36,351 nt of DNA from Orenia metallireducens (GTDB taxonomy: Bacteria; Bacillota; Halanaerobiia; Halobacteroidales; Halobacteroidaceae): positions 866,984 through 903,334 of the forward strand of contig NZ_LWDV01000009.1 of assembly GCF_001693735.1 (NCBI RefSeq), in the 5' to 3' direction. Numbering within the stretch: the first letter of the stretch is position 1; every line of letters begins with the position of its first letter. Of the stretch, positions 5,152-12,612 are shown one piece after another. Position numbers and translations under genes: made by a program. The notes beneath the pieces were generated by a model, which worked only from the letters and a program-made list of their open reading frames with translations, did not search any database and was not told where the DNA came from.

Positions 5152-5664
5152 ATGAAAATAATAGATAAAAATAATATCTTTACAGTTATTTTGTTATATA
5201 TTACTTGGATTATTATGACAGGTGATTTTTCCCTATCTTCTTTAGTAGTTGGATTAACTATTTCAACCATTGTAGTCTTAATTATTAATAGCTCATTTAC
5301 ACAGCTTTTTTCTAAAAAATTAATTACAAAACCATGGGCATTTTTATGGTACGCTATCTATCTAAGTAGCCAAATGTTTATAGCTAGTTATAAAGTAGCT
5401 TATTTTGTACTCCATCCAAAAAAGAATTTTAGACCTGCAATTGTTAAAATTCCTACAGATTTAGGAAAGAGAAATCGCTTAATTAAATTAACTATTTTAG
5501 CCAATTCTATAACTCTAACCCCTGGAACAATAACTATGGATTTAGATAGTGAAACCCATGGATTATATATTCATTGTCTAGACTTAAAATTTGAAGAAGA
5601 TAATAAAATTAAAGAGATGATTTTTGGTAAATTTGAAAGAATTATCAGGAGGATGTTTAAATGA
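5152..5664 (+). CDS. mrpE: Mrp antiporter subunit E (MbhA-like)
   Basis: The 170-aa protein is the first gene of a nine-gene operon. It has two or three N-terminal membrane helices (about 10-45 and 60-85) and a cytoplasmic C-terminal domain with the MrpE/MnhE block NSITLTPGTITMDLD followed by LYIHCLDL. MrpE is an accessory subunit needed for assembly of the Na+/H+ antiporter complex. ATG follows TTAGGAGGATCTA. Its stop overlaps the mrpF start by 4 nt (ATGA), showing translational coupling. Length is normal. Confidence 0.92.
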   Translation: MKIIDKNNIFTVILLYITWIIMTGDFSLSSLVVGLTISTIVVLIINSSFTQLFSKKLITKPWAFLWYAIYLSSQMFIASYKVAYFVLHPKKNFRPAIVKIPTDLGKRNRLIKLTILANSITLTPGTITMDLDSETHGLYIHCLDLKFEEDNKIKEMIFGKFERIIRRMFK

Positions 5665-5903
5665 TTGAAATTATAATAATAGTAATTTTACTTTCTGCTT
5701 TATTGACCTTTTATAGAGTCATCAAAGGTCCAACAGTCTTTGATAGAATAGCTGCTGCTGATTCAATTGGCATAATGTTCCTGTTAATCTTGGTATTACT
5801 AAGCTTATATTTTCAACGGGAAATCTTTATAGATGTCGCTATAGTCTATGCTCTGTTATTGTTCGTCGATGTATTGATTATGGCTAAATTCTTCGGACAT
5901 TAA
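5661..5903 (+). CDS. mrpF: Mrp antiporter subunit F (MbhB-like)
   Basis: This 80-aa membrane protein has three helices. The family motif RVIKGPTVFDRIAAAD sits between helix 1 and helix 2, and the last helix carries VAIVYALLLFVDVLIMAKF. MrpF is a small scaffold subunit of the complex and has been implicated in cation or bile-salt export in other species. The start overlaps mrpE. Its TAA stop (5901-5903) lies inside the ribosome site of mrpG. Confidence 0.92.
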   Translation: MIEIIIIVILLSALLTFYRVIKGPTVFDRIAAADSIGIMFLLILVLLSLYFQREIFIDVAIVYALLLFVDVLIMAKFFGH

Positions 5904-5910
5904 GGAGGGG
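5902..5910 (+). promoter_or_regulatory. Ribosome binding site for mrpG, deciding an ATT start
   Basis: AAGGAGGGG lies 8 nt (counted from GGAGG) before ATT 5917. No ATG, GTG or TTG occurs in frame between this site and the conserved MrpG N-terminus. Confidence 0.75.
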
Positions 5911-5916
5911 ATCAAA

Positions 5917-6264
5917 ATTATTAAGTTACTCGGTTATTTTTTAGTTATAAATGGAGCTTTTTTCTTCTTAGTCACTACTATTGGTATGATTAGATTTGAA
6001 GATTTTTATACTAAGTTACATATAGGGTCTAAATGTTTGACAGGTGGAGGTATCTCGGTTCTTTTGGGAGTTATCTGTTTTAAGGGGCTTTCCCTCTATT
6101 CTTTAAAATTATCTTTAATCATTGTCTTCTTAATTATTAGTAACCCAGTTACTAGTCATGCTCTAGCTAGAGCAAGTTATTATTCTAAGAGTGGTTCTAT
6201 TGCAGAAAGATCCCACTTAATAAGAGATGACTTAAAAGAAAAGAAGCATGGTGGTTTATTATGA
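5917..6264 (+). CDS. mrpG: Mrp antiporter subunit G (MbhC-like), non-canonical ATT start
   Basis: Read from ATT 5917 the product is 115 aa. It begins (M/I)IKLLGYFLVINGAF, which is a normal MrpG first helix. Starting at the first in-frame ATG (5986) would delete that helix and truncate the family to 92 aa. The family core IGMIRFEDFYTKLHIGSK follows, then helices 2 and 3 with SNPVTSHALARASY. MrpG is an accessory subunit required for complex activity. The stop overlaps the next start (ATGA). ATT 5920 is an alternative start. The ATT start is inference from frame, family length and ribosome site spacing. Confidence 0.88.
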   Translation: MIKLLGYFLVINGAFFFLVTTIGMIRFEDFYTKLHIGSKCLTGGGISVLLGVICFKGLSLYSLKLSLIIVFLIISNPVTSHALARASYYSKSGSIAERSHLIRDDLKEKKHGGLL

Positions 6265-6500
6265 TGGAAATGATAGTATATTTATTATTATTATTTATCC
6301 TATTAACTGCTTTTTTTGCATCATTTACTAAGGATTTAGTAAATTCATTGATTGCCTTATCCCTATTAAGTTCAACTCTTGTTATTCTATTTATAATATT
6401 ACAGGCTCCTGATGTAGCTCTAACTGAAGTAGTAGTTGCTAGTGGCATTACTACAGGTTTCTTTATCATTACAATCGATAAGACAGGAGGAAAAAGATGA
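6261..6500 (+). CDS. MbhD-like subunit (equivalent of part of the MrpA C-terminus)
   Basis: The 79-aa protein has three membrane helices and matches the MbhD/DUF4040 family. The diagnostic block is APDVALTEVVVASGITTGFFI (last helix; residues about 50-70). In standard Mrp operons this segment is fused into the C-terminal part of the giant MrpA; here it is a separate gene, as in archaeal Mbh and Mrp-Mbh operons. It starts inside the mrpG stop and overlaps the next gene by 4 nt. It likely forms part of the lateral Na+ path near MrpA/MrpB homologues. Confidence 0.82.
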   Translation: MMEMIVYLLLLFILLTAFFASFTKDLVNSLIALSLLSSTLVILFIILQAPDVALTEVVVASGITTGFFIITIDKTGGKR

Positions 6501-7204
6501 GGAAGATATATATACTAATCCTAATTCTTGGCTTAGGAATATTATTGTTTATCAATTTCTCAGATCTATTTGAAGATAGTAACCTAGCTAATAATAAGTA
6601 TCAACTCAGCCAACATTATATTGAAAATGGGGTCAAAGATACTGGTGCTATTAATCTAGTAACTGCTATCTTATTTGATTATAGAGGTTTTGATACCTTA
6701 GGTGAGGCTACAGTTATCTTTATTGTTGTATCTGCCATATCATTATTGGCTACCAAAGAAAGAGTTTTTGTTTCAGATACAAACTTCTCCCAGATTGTTT
6801 ACCAAAATATAAGCTTTATTATCCCTTTTTTATATATCTTAGCCTTCTATTTAATCGCTTATGGTCACCTATCGCCTGGAGGTGGTTTTGCTGGGGGAGT
6901 AGTTATAGCAACTACCTTCATTTTATTAAAAATTACTTTTGGGATTAGATATGTAAAGGAAGAAGAAGCTTTAGGGAAAAAATCACTTTTAGAAAGCCTT
7001 GGAGCAATCTCTTTTGTATTAACTGGACTGCTAGGAATATTATTAGGATATAACTTTTTAGCAAATGGTCAGACTAGCCTTTATTTAGGGATTGCAGGTC
7101 AATTGGTTAGTGCAGGGATTATTCCTATTTTAAACCTTGCTACTGGTATTAAAGTAGGATCAGGTCTGGCAATTATATTTCATCGTTTAGTAAGGGAGGA
7201 ATAA
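6497..7204 (+). CDS. mrpB: MbhE-MrpB fusion subunit
   Basis: The 235-aa protein joins two modules. Residues about 1-90 match MbhE, with DTGAINLVTAILFDYRGFDT and a following helix with GEATVIFIVVSAI. Residues about 95-235 match MnhB/MrpB, with the conserved loop YGHLSPGGGFAGGV and the later GLAIIFHR. MbhE is normally the end of MrpA or a separate subunit. The fusion to MrpB is common in bacteria with Mbh-ordered operons. Six to eight helices in all. It overlaps its upstream neighbour by 4 nt and ends 1 nt before mrpC. Confidence 0.87.
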   Translation: MRKIYILILILGLGILLFINFSDLFEDSNLANNKYQLSQHYIENGVKDTGAINLVTAILFDYRGFDTLGEATVIFIVVSAISLLATKERVFVSDTNFSQIVYQNISFIIPFLYILAFYLIAYGHLSPGGGFAGGVVIATTFILLKITFGIRYVKEEEALGKKSLLESLGAISFVLTGLLGILLGYNFLANGQTSLYLGIAGQLVSAGIIPILNLATGIKVGSGLAIIFHRLVREE

Positions 7205-7205
7205 C

Positions 7206-7541
7206 ATGGAATCTATTTATTTAGTAGTAATTATTTTATTCTGCCTTGGTCTCTATACAACTTTAACCAATACTAATCTAATCAAGATAATTATCGGAAT
7301 TAATATTATGGATTCATCCCTAGTTCTATTATTAGTAGTTTTAGGATATAAGCCTGAGGGAACTGCTCCAATAATTGACCAACAATACTCTATTATTGTT
7401 GATCCTATTCCACAAGCCTTAGCTCTAACAGCAATTGTAATAGGTGCTAGTATTACGGCATTGATGTTACTATTAACTATTAAACTACATCGAAACTATA
7501 ATACCCTTGATATTTCAGAAATTAGGAGGTTAAAGGGATGA
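7206..7541 (+). CDS. mrpC: Mrp antiporter subunit C (NuoK-like)
   Basis: This 111-aa protein has three membrane helices with the NuoK/MnhC pattern. Helix 2 reads IIIGINIMDSSLVLLLV, followed by the loop PIIDQQYSIIVDPIPQALALTAIVIG, a hallmark of MrpC. It is homologous to complex I subunit NuoK and links the antiporter modules. ATG follows AGGGAGGAATAAC. Its stop overlaps the start of the first mrpD-like gene by 4 nt. Confidence 0.93.
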   Translation: MESIYLVVIILFCLGLYTTLTNTNLIKIIIGINIMDSSLVLLLVVLGYKPEGTAPIIDQQYSIIVDPIPQALALTAIVIGASITALMLLLTIKLHRNYNTLDISEIRRLKG

Positions 7542-9034
7542 TAGATATAATTTGGTTGATAATAGTTCCTTTATTAGCAGGGTTCTCATTATTTTTCATT
7601 GATCTTTATCTGCCAAAATTAAAGGGAATATTTATTTTAAGTAATGGCTTACTTATCTTTTTACTCAGTATTAGCTTATTGATTAAGGTTATCGACCATC
7701 CTCTTATCTATAATTTAGGTAATTGGAAGCAAGGTTTAGGAATAAGTTTAATTGTTGATCCTTTAGGAGGATTATTGGCAGTATTGATTACTTTTATAAG
7801 TTTTATTATTCTCTCTTATTCTCTAAGTTATATCCAAATCAATCAACTTAAATATTATACACTCTTATTTCTATTAATTACTGGAATGCTAGGAATGGTC
7901 CTAACAGGAGATTTATTTAATCTCTATGTCTTTTTTGAAATCACCTCTATTATCTCCTATGTACTAGTGGCTTTTAATAAGAAGGATATAGCTTTTGAAG
8001 CAAGCTTTAAATATATGATTATAGGCTCAATCAGTGGAATTTTAATCTTATTGGCTATCATCTTAATCTATCAGAGTACTGGAACATTAAACTTAGCTCA
8101 ACTAGTTATCACTGCTAAAAATATTCCATTAAAGCTTAAACAAGTGATTGCAGTTTTGCTTCTGATTGGCTTTGGTTCTAAATTTGCCTTAGTACCTTTA
8201 CATACTTGGCTACCTGATGCTCACTCTACTGCTCCATCATCAATCAGCGCCTTATTATCTGGAGTTGTAATCAAGGTATTCTTATATGCTTTACTTCGAG
8301 TCTTGTTTGTCATTTTTAGAGTAGAAGAGTTATTAGCTTTAAAGTTAAATCTAGTCTTTCTTTATGGTGGAGTTATTACTTTATTAACAGGGCATCTCTT
8401 AGCTTATAGACAAAATAATTTAAAGAGATTATTGGCTTATTCAAGTATTGCTCAAATTGGTTATATATTAATTGGAATAGGGGTGTTTAATGCAGCAGGT
8501 TTAGAAGGAGCTATTTATCATATAATCAATCATGCTGTGGTAAAAGGGGTCTTATTTATGACTGCTGGCATCTTAATCCTTAAAGCTAAAAAGAAAGATA
8601 TTGCCGATTTAAAGGGAATCGCCTACCAATTACCCCTTAGTAGCTTTATCTTTACTATCTCTGCTTTAAATATAGTGGGACTGCCACCCTTTAATTCCTT
8701 TATCAGTAAATGGATATTAACCACTGCTGCTTTAAAGGCTGGCTTTATAATACCTGCTATCTCTATCCTTATTGGTAGTCTAATTTCTTTAAGTTATTAT
8801 TTAAAGATAATTATTTTATTCTATACTAAGGTGACAGAGAAGATAAATATTATATCAATACCTTATCAACTACAATTAGGACCACTGCTTTTATCACTAT
8901 CTTATCTTCCTTTAGCTTTTTTTCCAGACTTTTTACTATTGTTCATTAAAAAAGCACCATTGTTTCTATTAAAACCTATTAATTATCACAATATCTTATT
9001 AGGAGGAGAAAAATGGTTAGGGTTATTTGGCTAA
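7538..9034 (+). CDS. mrpD: Mrp antiporter subunit D, first paralogue
   Basis: The 498-aa protein is a proton-channel subunit of the NuoL/M/N family with about 14 helices. Functional residues of the family are present: Glu134 in GDLFNLYVFFEITS, Lys215 in GFGSKFALVPLHTWLPDAH, and the late lysine in GLPPFNSFISKWIL. It would carry protons coupled to Na+ movement by the complex. It is very similar along its length to the next gene, with Glu134 and Lys215 at identical positions, so the pair arose by tandem duplication. It overlaps mrpC at the start and the next gene by 22 nt at the end. Confidence 0.92.
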   Translation: MIDIIWLIIVPLLAGFSLFFIDLYLPKLKGIFILSNGLLIFLLSISLLIKVIDHPLIYNLGNWKQGLGISLIVDPLGGLLAVLITFISFIILSYSLSYIQINQLKYYTLLFLLITGMLGMVLTGDLFNLYVFFEITSIISYVLVAFNKKDIAFEASFKYMIIGSISGILILLAIILIYQSTGTLNLAQLVITAKNIPLKLKQVIAVLLLIGFGSKFALVPLHTWLPDAHSTAPSSISALLSGVVIKVFLYALLRVLFVIFRVEELLALKLNLVFLYGGVITLLTGHLLAYRQNNLKRLLAYSSIAQIGYILIGIGVFNAAGLEGAIYHIINHAVVKGVLFMTAGILILKAKKKDIADLKGIAYQLPLSSFIFTISALNIVGLPPFNSFISKWILTTAALKAGFIIPAISILIGSLISLSYYLKIIILFYTKVTEKINIISIPYQLQLGPLLLSLSYLPLAFFPDFLLLFIKKAPLFLLKPINYHNILLGGEKWLGLFG

Positions 9035-10485
9035 TTATCTTACCTTTATTGACTGCCTTTAGCTTAGGATTGATAAAATTATATTTTAAAAGATACTTTA
9101 ATTCCATTATCATTATCAGCTCTACAGCTCATATTATTTTAACCTTTATAGTTGCTAATCAAGCCATCAAAGAACCTCTAGTCTATAATATCGGTAACTG
9201 GAGCCCACTATTAGGGATTACCTTAGTTATAGATGCATTTTCAGCTTTATTCATCTTAGCAATTGTAGCCTTATCTTATCTAGTAACCCTTTATTCTATC
9301 AACTATATTAAAAGAGATAAGATAAAATATCATACTCTATCCTTATTATTATTAGCTGGAGCTATAGGGATAGTTATTACAGGAGATTTATTCAATTTAT
9401 ATGTCTTCTTTGAGATAGTTTCTATTAGTTCATATGCTCTAGCAGCTATTAATAAGGATACAGAAAGCTTTGAAGGATCTTTTAAATATTTAATCTTAGG
9501 CTCAATTAGTGGGGTTTTTATCCTATTGGCTATTATCTTAATCTACCAAAGCACTGGAACATTAAACCTTGCTCAAGCTGCCGTTAATTTTAAAGAGGTA
9601 GGTAGCAGTCTAAAGATTACAATCTTAATCCTTTATTTAATTGGTTTTTCTAGTAAATTTGCTCTAGTCCCTTTACACAGCTGGTTAGCAGATGTCTATA
9701 CTAAGGCTTCTGTTACCTTTAATGCTTTATCATCAGGTATTGTAATTAAGACCTCTTTATATGCTTTAATTAGAATTATTTATATCTTATTTGGAGTTGA
9801 ATTTATTATAGATATTGGTTTGCAAGATATCTTGGTTTATTGGGGGACATTGACCTTTATAGTAGCCCACCTATTGGCTTATCAACAAACTGGCCTTAGA
9901 AGGTTATTAGGATATTCTAGTATTGCACATATGGGCTATATTATTATGGTCTTTGCTTTAGGAAGTAAAGGAGGCATTATAGCAGGAGGCTATCATCTAA
10001 CTAACCATATAATAATGAAAGGGACATTATTCCTAGCTACTGGTATATTTATCTATAATCTTAAAGATGATAAGATATCAAAACTTACAGGTTTAGGAAG
10101 GACTCTACCCTACTCCTCTTTAGCCTTTGCTCTAGCAGCCTTTGCTATTATTGGTTTACCACCCTTTAATGGCTTTGTAAGTAAATGGTTAATCATCCAA
10201 CAAGTTTTAGAATCTAACTACTCTATACCAGCCTTTTTAATCTTAGTTGGTAGTCTATTATCATTAATTTATTATCTAAAGGTAATTAAAGAGTTATATT
10301 ATAAATTCAATGATGAAAAGATGATGTTTAAAGAATCTCTAATGTTAAAGCTACCAACTTTAACTCTAAGTATACTCTGCTTAGTATTAAGCCTATTACC
10401 TAGTTTTGCTCCTAAATTAATAGAAACACTCCCAAAGTTTTTAATAAACAGAGGTAATTATATCAATCTTTTACTAAGGAGGTAA
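9013..10485 (+). CDS. mrpD: Mrp antiporter subunit D, second paralogue
   Basis: The 490-aa protein is a NuoL/M/N-family proton channel. It has Glu134 in VFFEIVSISSYA, Lys215 in GFSSKFALVPLHSWLADVY, and a late lysine in GLPPFNGFVSKWLI. The loop ADVYTKASVTFNALSS replaces the more usual PDAHSTAPSSISALLSG of the first paralogue; the usual histidine of this loop is absent (DVYTKAS), so proton handling may differ. The start lies 22 nt inside the preceding gene, after AGGAGGAGAAAA. Seven nt separate it from the third channel gene. Confidence 0.9.
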   Translation: MVRVIWLIILPLLTAFSLGLIKLYFKRYFNSIIIISSTAHIILTFIVANQAIKEPLVYNIGNWSPLLGITLVIDAFSALFILAIVALSYLVTLYSINYIKRDKIKYHTLSLLLLAGAIGIVITGDLFNLYVFFEIVSISSYALAAINKDTESFEGSFKYLILGSISGVFILLAIILIYQSTGTLNLAQAAVNFKEVGSSLKITILILYLIGFSSKFALVPLHSWLADVYTKASVTFNALSSGIVIKTSLYALIRIIYILFGVEFIIDIGLQDILVYWGTLTFIVAHLLAYQQTGLRRLLGYSSIAHMGYIIMVFALGSKGGIIAGGYHLTNHIIMKGTLFLATGIFIYNLKDDKISKLTGLGRTLPYSSLAFALAAFAIIGLPPFNGFVSKWLIIQQVLESNYSIPAFLILVGSLLSLIYYLKVIKELYYKFNDEKMMFKESLMLKLPTLTLSILCLVLSLLPSFAPKLIETLPKFLINRGNYINLLLRR

Positions 10486-10492
10486 ATCAAAT

Positions 10493-12052
10493 ATGAATCC
10501 TGGAATTATCTATCTTCTCGGTACAGGGGTATTATTCTTCACTCGAGATAAATTAAGAGAATTTATAGCTATAGCTTTATCTATTTTAGCTATAATAGTG
10601 ATTTATAATCTGACTGTTGATCAGAGTTTAATAGTCTCTTTCTTAGATTTTAATTTAGTCTTATTAAAAGTTGATAATATTAGCAAAATAATCGGATTAT
10701 CTTTTGCCTTTTTTGGGCTATGTAGTATGATTTATGCTAGTAATTTATCTGATGGAAAGTATTATATTTTATCCCAACTCTATATCGGTAGCTCAATAGC
10801 TATTTTATTTGTGGGAGATTTCTTCTCCTTCTATATCTGCTGGGAACTTATGACTATCAGCTCTTACTTTTTAATCTTTAATAATGAGAAACCTATTACC
10901 AAACAGACAAGTTATTATTACTTCATCATGCAGATGGTGGGAGCAATCAGCCTCTTATGGGGAATCTTGTTACAGTATACTGGAACAGGTAATCTTGAGT
11001 TGACAAATATAAAGTATGGTCTACCCTTCTTCCTCTTAGCAATAGGGATTAAGTTAGCCTTTATCAGTCTACATACTTGGCTACCTCAAAATTATAGTAA
11101 TGTTCCCTTTCATATCAGTGTTCTCTTATCAGCCTATACCACCAAGGTTGGAGTTTATGGCTTATATAGACTCTTAAGTGGACTTAACTTTTTAGGATAT
11201 GCAGGTATCATTACTGCTTTGTCAGGAGTCTTCTTAGCCTTAAGACAGACTAAGGTACGCAAGCTTTTATCTTACCATATTATCAGCCAGATTGGTTATA
11301 TGATTACTGCAATTAGTGTGGGTACAACTTTAGGAGCAGGTGGAGGGATTATTCATTTGATTAATAATATTCTCTATAAAGGGCTATTATTTATGGTAAT
11401 TGGAATCATAATCTATAGGACTGGTAAGGAAGACTTAATAGAACTAGGTGGCTTAGCTAAAAAGCTCCCTTTGCTGACCTTTTATGCCATTATTGCAGCC
11501 CTGTCAATTACTGGATTCCCCTTCTTCAGTGGCCATATTAGCAAATTAATAATTAAAAAAGCTCTCCATAATCAAATTTTAAGCTGGGGATTATATTTAG
11601 CAGGAATAGGTACTTCCCTTTCATTTTTAAAAGTAATATATTTTGCCTTCTTTAGAGAGTTGGATGAAGAAGTTGAGATCAATGATAAGTCAGATAAAGC
11701 TATGCTCTTTGGTATGGGCTTAATTACTACTGTACTACTAGTGATTGGTTTAAACCCCAAGCTCTTAACAGACTTTTTAGCTTTAGATAACAAAGTACAT
11801 TTCTTTTCTCTTAAGTATATCTGGAAAGGGATAGAACCTATCATCCTAGCTACTATCATCTTTAAAGTAGCTCATGATATTATCAAGCCCCATCATCATA
11901 AAGTTAGAGCTATTGATATCTATCCCTTATTAGCTAAAGGAATAGAGTACCCCAGTAAAGCTTTAAGTTATGTCCATAATGGGGATTTAGGTAGGTATCT
12001 TCTCTGGGTAGTATCTACTCTATTGCTATTATGGATTACACTATTATTTTAG
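10493..12052 (+). CDS. Third MrpD/NuoL-like proton-channel subunit
   Basis: The 519-aa protein is more divergent than the two preceding paralogues but keeps the family plan: Glu118 in SFYICWELMTISSYF, Lys187 in AIGIKLAFISLHTWLPQNYS, and FPFFSGHISKLI near residue 350. It has an extra C-terminal segment with a histidine-rich loop (KPHHHKV, about residue 463) and a final helix, LLWVVSTLLLLWITLLF. It may stand in for the N-terminal channel half of MrpA, which is missing as such. Alternatively it could be a HyfB/EchA-like ion pump subunit. ATG follows AAGGAGGTAAATCAAAT. It is the last gene of the operon. Confidence 0.85.
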   Translation: MNPGIIYLLGTGVLFFTRDKLREFIAIALSILAIIVIYNLTVDQSLIVSFLDFNLVLLKVDNISKIIGLSFAFFGLCSMIYASNLSDGKYYILSQLYIGSSIAILFVGDFFSFYICWELMTISSYFLIFNNEKPITKQTSYYYFIMQMVGAISLLWGILLQYTGTGNLELTNIKYGLPFFLLAIGIKLAFISLHTWLPQNYSNVPFHISVLLSAYTTKVGVYGLYRLLSGLNFLGYAGIITALSGVFLALRQTKVRKLLSYHIISQIGYMITAISVGTTLGAGGGIIHLINNILYKGLLFMVIGIIIYRTGKEDLIELGGLAKKLPLLTFYAIIAALSITGFPFFSGHISKLIIKKALHNQILSWGLYLAGIGTSLSFLKVIYFAFFRELDEEVEINDKSDKAMLFGMGLITTVLLVIGLNPKLLTDFLALDNKVHFFSLKYIWKGIEPIILATIIFKVAHDIIKPHHHKVRAIDIYPLLAKGIEYPSKALSYVHNGDLGRYLLWVVSTLLLLWITLLF

Positions 12053-12216: not shown

Positions 12217-12567
12217 ATGACTACAGCAATGCAAACACATATGGACAGATATCAAAAATGTATCGATATCTGTAACAAGTGTATGACTGAATGTGAATTC
12301 TGCTTAGATGCTTGTATGCATGAGCCAGATGTAGATGCTAGAGTTGACTGTATGAGCCTGTTATTAGACTGTATAGGAATCTGTGCCCTGTCTGCTAAGT
12401 ATATGGCAGGTAATAGTCGATACGCTCAACAAGTATGTGGATTATGTGCAGAGATCTGTGATGCTTGTGCTGATGAATGTGATAAGTTTAAAGATAATCA
12501 TTGTCAAACTTGTGCAGATATCTGTCGCCAATGTGCAGCAGAATGTCGTGCAATGGCAACTGCATAA
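12217..12567 (+). CDS. csp: Cys-rich four-helix bundle protein (Csp-type copper storage)
   Basis: The 116-aa protein has 19 cysteines, mostly in CxxC and CxxxC spacing along four amphipathic helices (for example CIDICNKCMTECEFCLDAC, and CADICRQCAAEC at the end). This is the DUF326/Csp pattern, in which cysteines lining a four-helix bundle bind many Cu(I) ions. No signal peptide is visible, so it resembles the cytosolic Csp3 type. ATG follows CAAGGGGGAATTAAT. It is monocistronic. I see no CsoR or CopY operator upstream. Another metal-binding or redox role is possible. Confidence 0.85.
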   Translation: MTTAMQTHMDRYQKCIDICNKCMTECEFCLDACMHEPDVDARVDCMSLLLDCIGICALSAKYMAGNSRYAQQVCGLCAEICDACADECDKFKDNHCQTCADICRQCAAECRAMATA

Positions 12568-12570
12568 ATA

Positions 12571-12612
12571 TATAAAAGGATATAGGGCATATATGCCCTA
12601 TATCCTTTTATA
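12571..12612 (+). terminator. Perfect 42-nt palindrome terminator after csp
   Basis: TATAAAAGGATATAGGGCAT on the left is matched by its exact complement on the right with no loop mismatch. TTTTATAATAA follows on the plus strand. It lies 3 nt after the csp stop. Confidence 0.8.

Follow-up and report, generated by a model that had tools for sequence, protein, structure and literature searches.

Group 3 Mrp antiporters and the Orenia operon

Mrp-type antiporters of group 3 (CPA3) are defined by the missing mrpA gene, and their mrpD gene is present "sometimes with multiple copies" (PMC8415708). The stand-alone group 3 Mrp of Pyrococcus furiosus (mrpEFGBB'CD) is described as having the Mbh gene order, no mrpA and no redox module, and its deletion shows a role in the pH response with Na+ (PMC8415708). 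The same gene order, again without mrpA or a redox module, is found in an operon of Orenia metallireducens, an Orenia-like member of the Halobacteroidaceae (order Halanaerobiales) with a genome of 3.47 Mb in 12 contigs (GCF_001693735.1). The operon lies in a stretch of 36,351 nucleotides, hereafter the window, that corresponds to positions 866984-903334 of contig 9 (NZ_LWDV01000009.1), and is composed of nine + strand genes at window positions 5152-12052. The P. furiosus operon contains one channel gene, whereas the Orenia operon contains two more. The most probable reading, to which we assign a probability of roughly 0.55 on the basis of sequence comparisons, is a stand-alone group 3 Mrp-type Na+(or K+)/H+ antiporter in which MrpA is encoded in pieces, MrpD is duplicated, and the channel subunits D1, D2 and D3 likely stand side by side. 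Analysis of open reading frames and Pfam matches gave the following genes.

5152..5664, + strand: MrpE / MbhA homologue, 170 aa (PF01899 MNHE, 5.6e-36)
5661..5903, + strand: MrpF / MbhB homologue, 80 aa (PF04066 MrpF_PhaF, 7.1e-14)
5917..6264, + strand: MrpG / MbhC homologue (PF03334 PhaG_MnhG_YufB, 1.5e-24)
6261..6500, + strand: MbhD homologue, equivalent to MrpA transmembrane helices (TM) 17-19 (PF13244, 8.4e-16)
6497..7204, + strand: MbhE module, equivalent to MrpA TM20-21, fused to MrpB / MbhF (PF20501, 7.6e-10, and PF04039 MnhB, 3.2e-23, in one protein)
7206..7541, + strand: MrpC / MbhG / NuoK homologue (PF00420 Oxidored_q2, 1.1e-25)
7538..9034, + strand: D1, MrpD/MbhH-type channel (PF00361 Proton_antipo_M, 3.9e-63; best solved chain 6cfw_H, MbhH)
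9013..10485, + strand: D2, MrpD/MbsH-type channel (PF00361, 1.7e-56; best solved chain 6u8y_H, MbsH)
10493..12052, + strand: D3, MrpA-N / MbsH' type channel with a C-terminal TM15-linker(HL)-TM16 (PF00361, 6.5e-44; best solved chain 6u8y_X, P. furiosus MBS)

The gene order E-F-G-MbhD-(MbhE+MrpB)-C-D1-D2-D3 and the coordinates agree with the original prediction, which was made from the letters of the window alone. Its separate MbhD gene, its fusion of MbhE to MrpB and its three channel subunits in an Mrp operon with Mbh gene order were recovered as one PF13244 protein, one protein with both PF20501 and PF04039, and three PF00361 proteins, respectively. The last three are the sole PF00361 matches of the genome, and the largest of them has 519 aa. 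In line with group 3, homologues of MrpB, C, E, F and G are found in one operon, the mrpA gene is missing and several mrpD genes are present.

An identical order of nine parts, E-F-G-DUF4040-MnhB-C-D-D-D, is present in haloarchaeal plasmid Mrp operons (Haloarcula marina NZ_CP100409.1 and Haloterrigena turkmenica NC_013747.1), where the name given to the last of the three channels, "Na(+)/H(+) antiporter subunit D", is that of PRK12668, the model that is also the best NCBIfam match of D3. The haloarchaeal operons differ from that of Orenia in that the DUF4040 gene holds MbhD(+E), and their second channels and D2 are placed on different branches of the tree. By description, two further operons are comparable. 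In the group 3 Mrp of Ca. Nitrospira alkalitolerans, mrpD is followed by two genes, one NuoM-like and one NuoL-like, that are read as additional mrpA/mrpD-like genes (PMC7784846), and the mrpCD1D2EFGAB operon of Aphanothece halophytica, which acts as a Na+/H+ antiporter in Escherichia coli, contains two mrpD genes and mrpA in a gene order other than that of Orenia (PMC5703873). Since the definition of group 3 allows several mrpD genes and the same nine-part order is found in haloarchaeal plasmids, the Orenia operon belongs to a known type, with a three-channel layout already annotated in haloarchaea and similar sets in Nitrospira and cyanobacteria. In the open-licence literature searched we found no report of a three-channel Mrp in Orenia or the Halanaerobiales, and no description of repeated channel gain with a constant bracing segment in that order.

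Extra channel subunits in an antiporter-derived array are also a feature of 2M complex I and Complex_I_3 (PMC7117926, PMC9040806). However, these extra-pump complexes are described with redox arms and a lengthened HL, the amphipathic helix that runs along the channels, and the Orenia operon has neither. On a plasmid of Pararhizobium sp. A13 (locus L069), a complex I operon was observed that contains two MrpD-like genes in addition to NuoM and NuoN. One of these two is named like the NCBIfam match of D3, and the operon resembles the "green" rhizobial complex I (PMC9040806).

A divided MrpA and a duplicated MrpD

The best match of D3 among solved structures is chain 6u8y_X of P. furiosus MBS, which was taken as MbsH' because of its length (618 residues) and the description in the paper; in the same complex, MbsH (6u8y_H) resembles D2. 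Unlike the Orenia operon, MBS itself comprises two channels together with a redox arm that includes MbsM (PMC7684303). When a profile of 14 D3-type proteins was used, 6u8y_X was again the top match (195 bits), and the alignment of this profile to MrpA reached residue 629 of 6z16_A and residue 609 of 7qru_A, which is beyond the channel domain and through TM16. In the published comparison, TM1-16 of MrpA correspond to MbsH' and TM17-21 to MbhD and MbhE (PMC8415708 Table 2). Because D3 matches MrpA-N/MbsH' and the two small modules match the remaining helices, D3, MbhD and MbhE together are, as judged by these alignments, a complete MrpA spread over three genes, so D1 and D2 are two MrpD subunits and the operon has one channel above the standard Mrp. 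A single large MrpA (TM1-21), by which groups 1 and 2 are recognized, was not found; its parts lie in D3, MbhD and the MbhE+B fusion. The statement in the original prediction that the giant MrpA is lacking is thus correct for the gene and incorrect for its parts, and of the two extra MrpD-like channels proposed there only one is extra, D3 corresponding to the N-terminal half of MrpA. Identity between D3 and D1 is 37% across 335 residues and between D1 and D2 47% across 489 residues. TM15 and TM16 of D3 were placed by hydropathy and profile alignment; an AlphaFold2 model of D3 built from a six-row alignment had a mean pLDDT of 45.3 and was not used.

All three channels retain the residues of the proton path, as a complex-I-like array would. 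The Glu of TM5 and the Lys residues of TM7, TM8, TM11 and TM12 are kept in 4/4 first copies (c1) and 4/4 second copies (c2) of MrpD from Orenia-type operons and in 11/11 D3-type rows. In D1 of Orenia the kept residues are Glu134, Lys215, Lys246, Lys336 and Lys391, in D2 the same key residues are found, and in D3 they are Glu118, Lys187, Lys218, Lys296 and Lys351. The TM12 residue is Lys in both D1 and D2, versus Glu in E. coli NuoM. The TM11 histidine is constant in D1 and D2, and the D3-type rows have Asn (7/11), His (3/11) or Gly (1/11) at this site. The ratios of nonsynonymous to synonymous substitution (dN/dS) for D1, D2 and D3 were 0.16, 0.14 and 0.12 relative to genome G001, and 0.26, 0.23 and 0.11 relative to G002, calculated with the simple NG86 method and with a high dS for D3 in the second comparison. 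These values indicate that all three genes are under purifying selection. The original prediction had suggested channel phylogeny as a check for a non-functional copy, and judged from the tree, the key residues and dN/dS, neither D1 nor D2 resembles a dead copy.

Distribution and origin of the third channel

The family of Orenia is represented by eight genomes (G000-G007), and counts for the class cover the fetched loci rather than every genome. Three-channel operons are present in four of the eight (G000, G001, G002 and G003), and both D1 and D2 are retained in all four. Two-channel operons were found in G004 (two), G006 and G007 and as a second operon of G001, and G005 has no match to D3. 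Among Halanaerobium-like genomes (f3, g15), a three-channel operon is present in 10 of the 12 genomes with fetched loci, the other two (G029 and G033) having two channels. In family f7, four of five operons have three channels, and that of G057 stops at a contig edge. Two operons depart from this layout: in the three-channel Mrp of G030 (L080, 6915-11341) the doubled gene is of the MrpA-N type, not MrpD, and the Mrp operon of G025 (L063, 5856-15482) contains four channel genes with open frames of 499, 546, 493 and 723 aa. In addition, the two-channel Mrp operons of G004, both complete, stand in tandem (L049), and in G010 the end of one Mrp operon is followed by a complete one (L052).

In the phylogenetic trees, D1 and D2 of Orenia and its kin share a clade with the sole MrpD of their relatives, and the pairs of Halanaerobium and f7 belong to another. 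Two rows were dropped as too short (G043_c1 and G040_c3), rows below 380 aa were not named channels, and the set of genomes with a single MrpD excludes G031, in which the contig cuts the gene. D2 clusters with the one MrpD that two-channel relatives have, and D1 branches outside them; on this tree, D1 is the copy absent from the two-channel relatives, and it has been retained since before the split between Orenia and the genus of G003. The approximately unbiased (AU) test strongly rejected a common origin for the first copies of Orenia, Halanaerobium and f7 (p about 1e-65), and it also rejected a single clade of all second copies (p about 5e-7). Since both one-clade constraints were rejected, the tree supports at least three independent MrpD duplications, in Orenia kin, in Halanaerobium and in the third family, f7, together with one duplication of the MrpA-N type in G030 (SH-aLRT 92). 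When D1 and D2 of the four Orenia-type genomes were forced into one clade, the constraint was only mildly rejected (AU p=0.033), and the branches of the G003 rows were long. The duplication in Orenia kin is therefore of uncertain age.

Several smaller features of the locus were also apparent. The genes of D1 and D2 overlap by 22 nt, and D2 has its own Shine-Dalgarno sequence. ATG, GTG and TTG are all missing near the expected start of MrpG, where the first ATG is at 5986. An in-frame ATT at 5917 stands behind AAGGAGGGG, 6 nt after AGGAGGG(G) (region 5903-5925), and is probably the start in place of the ATG at 5986. The same ATT with the same spacing is found in G001, G002 and G003 (loci L045, L047 and L048), which suggests a rare ATT start codon conserved among relatives. 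The MbhD homologue contains the conserved PDVALTE, including its acidic residue. A scan for promoters and terminators gave no excess above shuffled sequence. The operon is flanked upstream by a gene for a PdaC/DUF3298 protein and downstream by one for a copper-storage-like protein; both are missing beside the operons of most relatives, and the PdaC gene was seen in G001 only. The downstream gene (12217-12567) encodes a Csp-like four-helix copper-storage protein, with a weak NCBIfam match below the cut-off, and directly behind it lies a 19-pair inverted repeat (12571-12612).

Arrangement of the three channels

In the model proposed for Mrp, coupled MrpA-N and MrpD import about 2 H+ per Na+ expelled, with one coupling point between MrpA and MrpD; the TM5 Glu of MrpD faces the Na+ site near MrpC, and its TM12 Lys faces MrpA (PMC7419157). 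If Orenia follows this model, protons would enter via the channel subunits and Na+ would be driven out via the MrpA-C/B/C/E/F/G part. If C, D1, D2 and D3 were lined up in gene order, a third proton unit would adjoin MrpC. An in-line channel of this kind would contribute a further coupling point and a further proton, so that at one proton per channel about 3 instead of about 2 H+ would enter per Na+. At zero ΔpH the attainable Na+ ratio would scale with exp((n-1)FΔψ/RT), and the potential required for a given gradient would be halved from n=2 to n=3. For a fermenting halophile, it would be of use to hold its Na+ gradient with about half the membrane potential. By analogy with the published model, a changed ion number per cycle is possible. 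An RnfD-type protein is encoded on contig C10, and an Rnf-type system is a possible source of the ion-motive force. Residues 33-36 of MrpC are N-I-M-D, with D or E at that site in most relatives; at such a site of MBH, Asn and Asp have been proposed as Na+ ligands replacing the histidines of Mrp (PMC7419157).

The length of HL weighs against a side-by-side arrangement of D1, D2 and D3. HL is short in MBH, longer in MBS and longest in complex I, its length following the number of pumps (PMC7684303), and complex I with extra pumps has a 26-residue HL insertion (PMC9040806). The distance from TM15 to the TM16 Trp of D3-type proteins is 58 residues in 4/4 three-channel and 6/7 two-channel relatives, the seventh aligning ungapped, so HL is no longer than in two-channel relatives. 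In 10/10 three-channel operons of Halanaerobium, the open frame of the third channel is 513-514 aa long, and the D3-type frames of the two-channel G029, G033 and G013 have 514, 514 and 519 aa. Motif search was blank for G004_c4 and most Halanaerobium rows, where the alignment and open-frame lengths were used instead. By hydropathy, the D3 linker comprises about 36 residues and that of E. coli NuoL 80, and the haloarchaeal linker looks longer than that of D3 (about 76). This crude measure overlooks TM15 in several proteins, where it gives gaps of 76-83, and HL length was therefore taken from motif distance and alignment. By these measures the third channel was gained without a longer brace, and D3 shows no sign of accommodating it. 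Divergence between the two faces of D1 and D2 did not discriminate between an array and alternative use. A first version of the test, post hoc and with boundaries set by eye, gave p=0.09 for Orenia and p=0.10 for G021, and in Halanaerobium all losses were in c1 (14 in TM3-7 and 1 in TM8-13). When it was repeated with more genomes and with the published half-channels, TMH4-8 and TMH9-13 (PMC7419157), as boundaries, the value for Orenia (T=+0.084, p=0.25) lay inside the spread of control pairs of sole MrpD proteins (n=66, median |T| 0.061, 90th percentile 0.123); Halanaerobium gave T=-0.070 (p=0.27) and f7 T=+0.110 (p=0.07).

The constant brace leaves two readings. Either the channels form an array of which HL holds only a part, or D1 and D2 are alternatives. 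In the latter case one of the two MrpD subunits would be combined with D3 in each complex, and the one operon would supply two isoforms of a normal two-channel Mrp. The unchanged bracing segment, the complete key residues of both copies and the lack of significant half-specific divergence (p=0.25) are all consistent with this, as is the finding that either kind of MrpD can serve alone, since G029 and G033 (Halanaerobium) retain only the c2-type copy and the single MrpD of G013, from another genus, groups with c1. However, D1 and D2 overlap in one operon without separate regulation, which suggests equal dosage, and the duplicates stand side by side in 4/4 Orenia-type, 10 Halanaerobium and 4 f7 operons. 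We regard alternative use of D1 and D2 as less likely than the side-by-side array, although it is a serious competitor. A redundant or decaying copy without function is improbable. Two-channel versions do persist in many relatives, and loss of c1 was sampled twice in Halanaerobium (G029 and G033), but dN/dS is 0.14-0.26 for both genes, the key residues are intact in 4/4 genomes, the reading frames are intact, and D1 predates the split between Orenia and the genus of G003.

The original prediction also allowed for a link between the antiporter and an oxidoreductase whose genes lie elsewhere; such docking would be of the kind seen in Mbh, Mbs and complex I. The gene order and the MbhD/MbhE split are indeed Mbh-like (PMC8415708), and the genome does encode NiFe hydrogenases. 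Nonetheless, the membrane anchor NuoH/MbhM (PF00146) had no match in the Orenia genome or the seven other genomes of the family, whereas 11 of 14 control genomes matched; outside the family, G025 has only a NuoH match below the cut-off (2e-4). The operon contains no redox genes, and no hydrogenase-like subunits were found in it. The two NiFe hydrogenase large subunits are encoded on contig C7 and at C9:668-670 kb (genes at C9:668-671 kb), far from the window at C9:867-903 kb, and adjoin maturation genes and small subunits with NiFe_hyd_SSU_C. This domain is typical of uptake hydrogenases, not of group 4. With no NuoH homologue found in the eight family genomes and the hydrogenases of another type, a redox link was rejected as very unlikely.

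We tentatively propose that the stand-alone Mrp of halophilic anaerobes repeatedly gained a third channel without a longer brace, yielding either a three-proton high gear or a switch between isoforms, unlike extra-pump complex I. For the view that HL length tracks channel number, the constancy of the bracing segment poses a minor puzzle. The number of protons per channel subunit is an unsettled matter in both Mrp and complex I. Orenia, G003, Halanaerobium and f7 provide two- and three-channel relatives with redox-free and otherwise alike operons, so the question of whether an extra channel means an extra proton can be asked there without a redox arm. If the proposal is true, the gains and losses in these close relatives would form a natural series in which to see whether ion stoichiometry follows channel number.

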